From the NCBI GenBank assembly GCA_034440635.1, contig JAOTON010000200.1, forward strand, positions 620,001 through 684,000: a DNA stretch of 64,000 nucleotides. Reading direction: 5' to 3'. The notes beneath the pieces were generated by a model that was not told the DNA's origin, ran no database searches, and worked only from the letters and a program-made list of their open reading frames with translations. The stretch's first letter is position 1. The number at the start of each line of letters is the position of its first letter. A program made the translations under genes and the position numbers. This DNA is from Lepas anatifera. Taxonomy: Eukaryota > Arthropoda > Thecostraca > Lepadidae. Below are positions 4,520 through 30,064 of the stretch, one piece after another.

Positions 4520-7500
4520 CTGCCCAGCACGGAATACGTGTCACGGGGAGGAGGGGAGACTGCAGACAAGACAATCTGCTCCAGATCGGACTCATTGTTG
4601 AATTAACAACGGCAGGTTCAGGCCAATCCGTCCGCTCATCACGATTGCCAATCCCAATCCGACCAACATTCTAAAATAAAGAACTTCGGGATCAGAGTTG
4701 TCGAATCAGAGATACCATTGTTAATCATATGGTTATGCTTGCTCGTTATTTCCAGGTATCTGATGTCAATGTAACTTGTGGTATTCTTTTAGCCACTGAG
4801 GTCCACTGAAGTAGAGGCTCTGATCTTGAAACATTTGGCTATTTTATCTATAATAAATACATTTCAATGAAAATGTAAAATTCGTATTATGTATGGCTGT
4901 TTATGATCCAGTCATGTCGTTCGAATCTTTACAAATACTGATTGAGTGCACGCGACAGCACGGGCAGTAGTAAATAGAAAGAACATGATGAAAGCTCCGC
5001 ATTTCTTCTGAGCGAGAAAGCACCAAGATTCCAAGGCAACAACGGGGAGGAGCTACTAGGAGCATATCTATAGAACAACTAACATTACCAGAAGCCCGGC
5101 AGTCTCAATCACTGCTCTTTTTTCCAGGATTTGAGAAGATGCAAATCAAAGGCAGGAAATGTAAAAGGAACGGGTTAATGTTAAGACGAAGGGGTTAAGC
5201 ATTTTCGAAGCCGGCATTGGCCTCCCATCGGGACGGTGCGTAATGTGACTTTCAGTGCCACGTCACGATTTACTTTTCGCTGTCCCGACTTAAGGGTAGC
5301 ATTCTTGACAAATGTAATTTATACTGGAACAAATAAAGGTAACACTCTTATTGCGCTTCACACATCTTGTTTGATCCGAAGTGCAACTATGCGACATATA
5401 TGGTCAGATAGACGAACTACAATGCAAACAAAATACATTTTGAAACTAAACTTCAACCTCTGAGGTTACCCAAATATTTTCCTAGTGTATCTTTCATCTC
5501 ACATGCACGCTGGGTATGCAGCGAAACACAAATACTTTAATTACACACAAATCCCTTCTATGAATTCTTAACCGACGCAAGTGTGTAGCGAAGCAATTTC
5601 ATTACGGGCGTGCGGCACAGTTTTCCGGTTAAAGGATGGTTCAGAGCAGACCGCGGCGCCAGCTTTGGCAAATGAGACGCCCGGCTCTGCCAGTGCAATC
5701 ACCGGTTAGTGCCACACAGGGACGACTCCCTGGGGAGCCGCCGCCGCCAAATTCACTTTCATGACCGGCCGGGTACCGCTGCGTCTGTGTGGCCTGGGAC
5801 TGCTCGCCTGCAGATACCCAGTGGTACAAACACGCCCCCGCACTACAAAGAACATGACACACACACAGCCAAAGCGGCACCGTTTGCGGTTCAAACACGT
5901 CTGATGCACTTACTCATCAGCGGTTTAATTTCCGGCCGACCTGATGGTCACTGATGCTGGTTAATTTCATTAGGCGCCGCCGCTCCGCAATAATTGTTCA
6001 TATACTGGTACGGCCCGGCGCAGCCACAAAAGCATGCATCCAGATTCTACGCACAGAGAACGCTGATATTATGAGCTCACGGCTCACGTGAATTCTAAAA
6101 CTGCAGCGCGTGTTTAAGCTGTGCGGGCGGCGCCGTAAGCAAGGCTGTAGGGTGTCTTTAATCCGGAGGCTGGGGTCGCCTCTGATAACACGCCGTTAGC
6201 CTCGGCAGAGAGCCCATTTCATTGTCCGGGGCGAATCTCATAACGCGCAACATCCCAGTGTGATATTCCAGAGTAACACTAAATTTGACACCATTCGTGG
6301 AATTGTGACATTTTTGCTATTTCAGGCCAAGCTTTGTCAGCTGGGTTTGCGTGCAGTAATTGGAAACGTGACCTGAGCAACAGATTTGTTAGAAGTGCCA
6401 GTGTAATTGATTTAAATCTAATACTTCCAGGGACACCATCAGATTCATTGTCTCTTTTCCAGGAAGAACTTAGCAAGGAATCCAAATTAAAGCCATGATA
6501 AGATTGATTTGAATTTTCCAAATGGATATAGAATACGTGAAAAGGCTGATTTTAAATACCACAGTTACACTGCAGAATTTTGAAAAGGAAAGTTTCAGAA
6601 TATTGCTGGAAGCCACATATAGTCATTGCCAGTTAATGCGGGAAAATAAACAAGACACATAGACCCAAAACAATATTTGTATTTCATATGCTGTAACAAA
6701 AAAGCGTCCTTACATGGAAGAAAATTTATTTCGACAAGTCCTAGGACAAACAAAAAGTTTAAGGAGTTTTCTATTAGTAAGTAACATAAAATTTGAGCTG
6801 TTTGCTGCTGACTAGCCGTCGTCTTCATATCATTTGGAATTTGCGATAGGTAATCGATCAAGTATCTCACCAAAACTTATGCTTGTTTTATTCTTGAGCA
6901 GTTCGAATTCTAATGACTTCACTGTGTATTTTTGCAACGTCTTATAATGTTATTGATACAAATTAGAATATCATATGCAAGGGTAAGTGCACGTCGGTCG
7001 CAACAGGTCCCCTTACACCGTAGGTCAATGCCCAGCGAAATACTTCGTTTTCCCATTCACAATGATACGTCAAAGCCAGGGGCGAGTACCTACGGGTTCC
7101 ACTTACACTGTATGTCGACGTCCAGCGAATTACTGCTGGTTCCCACTTACACCGTATGTCGACGTCCAGCGAATTACTGCCGGTTTCTACTTACACCGTG
7201 TGTCGAGGTTCACGAATTACTGCCGGTTCCCACTTACATTGTATGTCGAGGTTCACGAATTACTGCTGGTTCCCACTTACATTATATGTCGAGGTTCACG
7301 AATTACTTGGGTTCCCACTTACACCGTCTGTCGAGGTCCAGCGAGTGGCTGCCGGTTCCCACTTACACCGTATGTCGAGGTCCAGCGAATTACTGCTGGT
7401 TCCCACTTACACCGTAAGTTGAGGTTCAGCGAATTACTGCTGGTTCCCACTTACACCGTATGTCGCGGTCCAGTGAATTACTGCCGGTTCCCACTTACAT

Positions 7501-28859: not shown

Positions 28860-30064
28860 CTGCCGACACAGGTACACATGACGTCACACCGCCCAGCAGC
28901 ACACAGCAGCCGCCACAGGTATTCATGACGTCACAGTGCCCAGCAGCATACAGCAGCCGCCACAGGTACTCATGACGTCACAGTGCCCAGCAGCATACAG
29001 CAGCCGCCACAGGTACTCATGACGTCACAGTGCCCAGCAGCACACAGCAGCCGCCACAGGTACTCATGACGTCACAGTGCCCAGCAGCATACAGCAGCCG
29101 CCACAGATACTCATGACGTCACAGTGCCCAGCAGCACACAGCAGCCGCCACAGATACTCATGACGTCACAGTGCCCAGCAGCACACAGCAGCCGCCACAA
29201 GTACTCATGACGTCACATGCCCAGCAGCACAGCAGCCGCCCTCAACGCCAGCATCTGCCACCATAGAAACGTATGACGTACACCACTCAGCAACACAGCA
29301 GCCGCCACGGTACTCTGACGTCACAGTGCCCAGCAGCACAGCAGCGCCCTCAACGCCAGCATCTGCCACCATAGAAACGTATGACGTCACACCCGAGCAC
29401 ACAGCAGCCGCCCACAGCACCAGCATCTGCCGACACAGGTACACATGACCTCACACCGCCCAGCAGCACACAGCAGCCGCCACAGGTAACATGACGTCAC
29501 ACCGCCCAGCAGCACACAGCAGCCGCCACAGGTACTCTGACGTCACAGTGCCTATAGCAGCGCCACAGGTACTATGACGTCACATGCCCAGCAGAACAGC
29601 AGCCGCCACAGGTACTCATGACGTCACAGTGTCCAGCAGCACACAGCAGCCGCCACAGATACACATGACGTCACACCGCCCAGCAGCACACAGCAGCCGC
29701 CAGGTACTCATGACGTCACAGTGCCCAGCAGCACACAGCAGCCGCACAGGTACTCATGACGTCACAGTGCCCAGCAGCACACAGCAGCCGCCACAGGTAC
29801 TCATGACGTCACATGCCCAGCAGCATACAGCAGCCGCCACAGGTACTCATGACGTCACAGTGCCCAGCAGCATACAGCAGCCGCCACAGATACTCATGAC
29901 GTCACAGTGCCCAGCAGCATACAGCAGCCGCCACAGGTACTCATGACGTCACAGTGCCCAGCAGCACACAGCAGCCGCCCTCAACGCCAGCATCTGCCAC
30001 CATAGAAACGTATGACGTCACACCGCTCAGCAGCACACAGCAGCCGCCATAGGAACGTACATGT
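28805..30064 (-). repeat. ~47-bp minisatellite derived from the signal-peptide exon
   Basis: About 24 units of roughly 47 bp, on the plus strand CAGTGCCCAGCAGCACACAG, then CAGCCGCCACAGGTACTCAT and GACGTCA. The CCCAGCAGCACACAGCAGCC core is the complement of the signal-peptide codons. Longer units around 29230, 29340, 29410 and 29975 also include the complement of the start-codon region (CAGCATCTGCC). The unit at about 29405-29460 is nearly identical to the start of exon 1. Units between 29220 and 29600 contain many single-base dropouts compared with their neighbours. Confidence 0.9.

Follow-up and report, generated by a model that had tools for sequence, protein, structure and literature searches.

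Minisatellites that copy exon edges in a kirre/rst-type gene and in other genes of the barnacle Lepas anatifera

Introduction

How do four minisatellites of a single gene come to lie each against an exon, with units that resemble the exon beside them? The question is raised by a 64,000-nucleotide stretch of the genome of the barnacle Lepas anatifera (the window, meaning the whole stretch of DNA analysed), in which an original prediction placed four long arrays with units of similar length at exon edges of a kirre/rst-like gene. It proposed that one shared process may copy about 45 bp at a time at exon boundaries and knew of no described system of the kind. Here we compare the arrays with the exons that they abut, place them beside exon edges of other genes in the same genome and weigh the explanations of how they arose.

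Results

The gene and its exons

The minus strand encodes a cell-adhesion gene of the kirre/rst type. The exon numbering of the original prediction, which we keep, follows the direction of the gene. Joined together, the seven exons of the window form a single 358-codon open frame, which matches the Drosophila Rst sequence (PDB 4of8) with an E value of 3.9e-38 and in which Ig domains are detected. Its best named relatives are Rst-like proteins of Pollicipes (56% to one of them), another goose barnacle. A COX1 fragment from the same assembly (446 residues under the invertebrate mitochondrial code) is 100% identical to that of Lepas anatifera, which makes a goose barnacle the most likely host. 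The introns are large. Exons 8 and 9 lie outside the window, with approximate ends; the seven exons within it are as follows.

Exon 1: 28731..28859, minus strand; ATG at 28859, signal peptide and start of Ig1; donor AGG|GTAAGT; supported by tblastn
Exon 2: 23330..23535, minus strand; second half of Ig1; donor CAG|GTCAGT
Exon 3: 15581..15716, minus strand; start of Ig2; acceptor CTGCAG|GTCTCGG, a splice position shared by a paralogous exon
Exon 4: 12259..12438, minus strand; arrayless at both edges by the TRF rule
Exon 5: 11593..11718, minus strand; arrayless by the TRF rule
Exon 6: 8632..8794, minus strand; Ig3; donor CGGT|GTAAGT
Exon 7: 4384..4519, minus strand; start of Ig4; arrayless by the TRF rule

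The bases directly upstream of exon 1 are either a 5' leader or a splice acceptor (GGCAG). Beside exon 5, a weak GAGT-rich repeat (11528-11593) appears with lax settings only.

Arrays at the exon edges

Tandem Repeats Finder (TRF) and a unit-by-unit comparison with the adjacent exon agree that four minisatellites stand at exon edges and that their units copy those very edges, as had been proposed.

Exon 1 array, 5' edge: 28843..30074, minus strand; 47-bp unit with some longer forms, 24 copies beyond the exon
Exon 2 array, donor side: 22859..23262, minus strand; unit of about 45 bp, nine decayed copies matching the exon end and donor
Exon 3 array, acceptor side: 15693..15980, minus strand; 41-bp unit of 17 intronic and 24 exonic nucleotides, six copies beyond the exon
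Exon 6 array, donor side: 7008..8672, minus strand; 44-bp unit that takes in the final exon codons and the donor; 35 copies outside the exon

The TRF calls are 7095-8672 for exon 6 (44 bp x 36), 15693-15980 for exon 3 (41 bp x 7), 28862-29979 for exon 1 (47 bp x 23, with decayed copies reaching about 30074) and 23149-23249 for exon 2 (45 bp), where laxer settings carry decayed copies back to about 22859. At 288 bp the exon 3 array is short, which corrects its earlier description as long. The exon 1 unit consists of signal-peptide codons and of sequence upstream of the start, including TGACGTCA; GGCAGATGCTGG, from the start-codon region, is retained in four of the 24 outer copies. Exact strings recur in the other three arrays as well: GGTGTAAGT in 26 copies at exon 6, CTGCAGGTCT (CTGCAG|GTCT) in five copies at exon 3, and CAGGTCAG in two copies at exon 2, or in four when at most one mismatch is allowed.

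Profiles made from the outer copies only lead back to the exons. The exon 1 edge ranks first among 365,442 positions of the 184-kb surroundings, and the edges of exon 3 and exon 6 rank first among 367,412 and 364,634 positions. The exon 2 edge ranks third among 367,114, and its match, originally called decayed, is thus real yet decayed.

The palindrome TGACGTCA, a cAMP-response-element consensus, occurs 23 times in the exon 1 array, directly before the start codon, and 31 times in the whole window against 0.7 expected.

Outside the window, the donor edge of exon 8 carries a 33-bp unit in 3.8 copies that are 72% alike, and that of exon 9 a 47-bp unit in 2.4 copies that are 97% alike; exon-edge arrays are thereby found at six of the nine identified exons (1, 2, 3, 6, 8 and 9). 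An automatic TRF rule returns five of the 18 edges of the gene as positive, the sixth, that of exon 2, being found by unit comparison. A 4.3-kb satellite starts no more than about 60 bases from the exon 9 array:

22-bp satellite: window coordinates about -9324 to -5008, outside the window on the same contig; about 203 copies

The window contains five strong arrays (period of at least 20, TRF score of at least 100). Four are the exon-edge arrays, and the fifth, at 42669-42788, is away from any known exon. A 16/60-bp repeat occupies 42651-42788; given its near copy in the flank, at window coordinate 78001, it is possibly part of a dispersed element. Further features of the window are a retrotransposon-like frame at 37143-40014 on the minus strand, whose endonuclease and reverse-transcriptase domains are split over two frames, another at 34673-35533 on the plus strand with a reverse-transcriptase domain, and very long GT, GA and GT/GCGT microsatellites (16063-16580, 16751-17029 and 40999-41208).

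Origin of the arrays

The units of the four window arrays are mutually unlike: over six pairs, the closest pair was matched by 32 of 500 shuffles. Their lack of resemblance rules out a common origin, and the arrays were born independently. Outward ageing from the exon is clear at exon 3 only (rho -0.85, P 0.03, n 6); at exon 6 the correlation is slight (rho -0.26, P 0.14), and exons 1 and 2 have no trend.

Arrays in other genes

Are such arrays peculiar to the kirre/rst-like gene? We sampled 50 exons (100 edges), chosen by rank and match length in family searches and not by repeats, taking 20 from 79 myosin-head matches, 20 from 104 SNF-transporter matches and 10 from 120 ion-channel matches. 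By inspection, exon-edge arrays whose unit includes a splice site are present at eight of the 50 loci.

Loci with exon-edge arrays: L034 (at a neighbouring exon), L037, L045, L059, L061, L062, L063, L073

At L039, L047, L053 and L076 arrays lie near the sampled edge, not at it. A strict own-edge test asked whether the terminal 45 bases of an exon recur in that exon's flank at the 99.9% level found for mismatched pairs, and five of the 100 sampled edges passed (L059, L061, L062, L063 and L073). Together with five of the 18 edges of the kirre/rst-like gene this makes ten passes among all 118 edges against 0.12 expected. The expectation that units match their own exon edges beyond mismatched exon-flank pairs is thus borne out. 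The arrays are not confined to one gene, as sampled myosin, SNF-transporter and ion-channel genes have them too. None of 100 exon middles, compared with their own flanks, passes the strict test.

Each method has its misses. The 45-mer test passes over L037 and L045, with few or no exon bases in the unit, and L034, with its array at the neighbouring exon; exon 2 and L059 escape the TRF rule. The SNF-transporter loci L062 (on C1930) and L063 (on C1971) are 97.5% identical downstream (584/599 bases), and their 82-bp exon-edge arrays differ in structure. They are possible alleles, indistinguishable from recent paralogues, and being near-identical are best counted once. In the ion-channel family, matches to one model segment recur at a spacing of 185-210 bases, a hint of tandem exon duplications on a longer scale:

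Repeated ion-channel segments: C1707:1691907-1692350; C1880:293657-293997

Unit length, reading frame and folding

Across both sets of genes the 13 unit lengths are 22, 26, 31, 32, 33, 40, 41, 44, 45, 47, 47, 57 and 82 bp, a span of 22-82 bp that does not agree with the fixed copying of about 45 bp proposed earlier. Arrays occur on the acceptor side at exon 3, L061 and L062 and on the donor side at exons 2, 6, 8 and 9, L059 and L073. Unit length is divisible by three in three of the 13 cases and not in the other ten. Reading through the donor of exon 6 gives a frameshift and then a stop; past exon 9 there are 55 open codons, and the L034 unit keeps the frame, so that arrays are not always protein-breaking if read through. 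When folded as single-stranded DNA, only the exon 9 unit, among five, is more stable than its shuffles, and hairpin-prone units were rejected as a shared cause.

Discussion

The arrays described here are exon-edge minisatellites of the mirage kind, a class to which we return below. What produces them? We consider it probable that they stem from general minisatellite birth, tolerated at exon edges since the extra copies fall outside the exon. Short tandem duplications of roughly 20-80 bp would arise often throughout the genome and expand into arrays. Where such a duplication happens to span an exon edge, the first copy would stay exon and the further copies would fall outside it, the original splice site being the outermost on the exon side. 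Provided that the spliceosome goes on using this original site, for which exon definition provides a basis, the array would leave with the intron and the duplication would be tolerated. The length of the array would then change by slippage or unequal exchange. We infer these as the cause, and likewise correct splicing and neutrality. As most units are not a multiple of three and read-through at exon 6 runs into a stop, splicing at inner copies would do damage in most cases, and the outermost site would have to be the one in use; the frame behaviour of the units and the exon 6 read-through are as expected for passengers. Against tolerance it may be said that a second splice site ought often to do harm, and simple tolerance would not predict a rate at or above background.

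A question remains: do exon edges carry arrays more often than other parts of the genome, in which minisatellites are common as well? Of 45-mers taken at random, about 5% are accompanied by a tandem copy at most 300 bases away, and of intronic 45-mers taken 150 bases from the sampled exons, 8 of 80 are, some of these lying within the exons' own edge arrays. Given that tandem copies also lie beside random positions, the original boundary-targeted reading goes too far, and this random-position control means that the mismatched-pair test proves self-copying, not a preference for exon edges. An unlikely though serious alternative to tolerated general birth is that exon edges are true birth hot spots, where events during transcription or splicing (polymerase pausing, R-loops, break repair) would raise duplication at the boundary. 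In its support stands the count of TRF arrays that end at the position examined: such arrays mark 6 of the 100 sampled edges, compared with 0.99% of positions drawn at random (P 0.0005; 0.003 with L062 and L063 counted once), the background here and below being 170 fragments mostly from the window's own contig. To this may be added that four of the five strong window arrays lie at exon edges, and that the five positive edges among 18 in the kirre/rst-like gene under the same TRF rule exceed even a 6% edge rate (P 0.003), in a gene that was picked for its arrays. Stricter scoring speaks against a hot spot. At a higher TRF cut-off the edges give 3 of 100 against 0.69% (P 0.03; 0.15 with the pair counted once), and with a looser tolerance added, 3 of 100 against 0.80% (P 0.05; 0.19 with the pair once); over the six TRF settings run, P ranges from 0.0005 to 0.19. 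The one-sided 45-mer measure yields 4 of 100 edges against 1.44% per direction at random (P 0.06; 0.17 with the pair once). The wide range of unit sizes and the unusually stable folding of a single unit in five weigh on the same side, and the base composition of splice sites alone could bias the points at which duplications start.

With matched controls, exon edges outside the gene have an excess of about three- to six-fold, the P value of which depends on the measure, on the cut-off and on whether the near-identical pair is counted once. Exon edges are not spared, and there may be a three- to six-fold enrichment; the sample is small. It is possible, if on balance doubtful, that barnacle exon edges are genuine hot spots of minisatellite birth at which a boundary-linked process continually copies splice sites into introns, several-fold over the genome. 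Were this true, the edges would hold a standing supply of spare splice sites for evolving new introns and isoforms.

Could selection keep the arrays, as decoy or recursive splice sites or, in the case of the TGACGTCA array upstream of exon 1, as an enhancer? By inspection, AG|GT stands at the splice site in 8 of the 12 splice-site-bearing unit types, a sequence that can act in a dual-specific manner (PMC10809524), and an intronic minisatellite of C. elegans is described as associated with alternative splicing (PMC4039745). The 23 palindromes of the exon 1 array also fit a function. We nevertheless hold a function to be improbable, given that the donor hexamer of the exon 6 array stands out only modestly in conservation (0.968 against 0.917 in the other columns, fourth among 39 hexamers), that the copies at exon 2 have decayed and that a paralogous exon 3 does without an array. 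Selection on the repeated donor would, from these values, be weak at best.

That paralogue bears also on the order of events. It lies elsewhere in the genome, is 75% identical and has its acceptor at the same position, and its 240-base flank contains no array. The exon 3 edge is therefore old, and either its array came later or the paralogue has lost one; a new intron position is not supported at exon 3, the one exon for which the paralogue gives this comparison. The reverse order, in which exon ends, notably that of the signal-peptide exon, were recruited from pre-existing arrays, draws on exon 1, where the order could be either and an array copy at a distance of 567 nt shares 98% identity with the copy at the exon edge. 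It is very improbable in the face of the arrayless paralogous edge and of the exon 3 and exon 6 edges, which encode residues aligning with Rst-like proteins. That the arrays are an assembly artefact or a chance adjacency can hardly be credited, for although long tandem arrays are prone to misassembly, the copies differ among themselves, the window's contig measures 1.13 Mb in a 1.04-Gb genome, the exon 3 and exon 6 arrays were each found at one place in the assembly in the searches made, and exon-edge copies in the own flanks of unrelated genes far exceed mismatched pairs.

How do the arrays compare with known systems? In potato, one tandem duplication across an intron-exon boundary is described as having made an intron (PMC4974935). 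That case resembles the barnacle arrays in that a boundary-crossing tandem duplication carries splice signals along; it differs in being a single duplication that gave a new intron, whereas the barnacle has multi-copy arrays beside existing exons. The polyubiquitin gene UBC is reported to contain arrays of dual-specific splice sites (PMC10809524). There too tandem units hold a potential splice site, and expansions are said to be tolerated since they are spliceable. The UBC units, however, are whole in-frame coding modules, whereas in the barnacle most lengths break the frame and the copies lie outside the exons.

The closest likeness is to the mirages of amphioxus, minisatellite-like duplications of exon-intron boundaries described in Adh3, globin, troponin C and PGBD5 (PMC3087553, PMC3902484), which means that the system thought to be undescribed has a published counterpart. 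In both, tandem repeats span the exon-intron boundary, with the proviso that the boundary at exon 1 is here perhaps a leader; either the 5' or the 3' end of the exon is affected, and many units contain the AG or GT signals. Mirage units of 10-72, 60, 108 and about 150-160 bp overlap the barnacle sizes. The barnacle arrays thus have the structural features of mirages. Length instability between alleles or cells is a further mirage trait, on which L062 and L063, near-identical loci with different arrays, may bear. They differ in that mirages are cephalochordate and these arrays have a barnacle host, with up to 35 extra copies per edge and arrays at two thirds of the identified exons of one gene. 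They differ further in the kind of evidence, as RT-PCR in amphioxus suggested regular splicing of mirages, whereas the barnacle arrays are known from genomic sequence alone. Among the titles and abstract openings listed in searches of the open-licence literature there was no case from a barnacle or another arthropod and no estimate of edge frequency, and the word splice does not occur in two Daphnia tandem-repeat papers. New here are the arthropod host and a first frequency of exon-edge arrays. At about 5 of 100 sampled barnacle exon edges, this frequency suggests a phenomenon wider than the amphioxus curiosity as which it stands in the literature found, and it opens to large-scale study the questions of how the spliceosome chooses among dozens of near-identical sites, whether mutation is concentrated at exon boundaries and whether the arrays contribute to the gain of introns.
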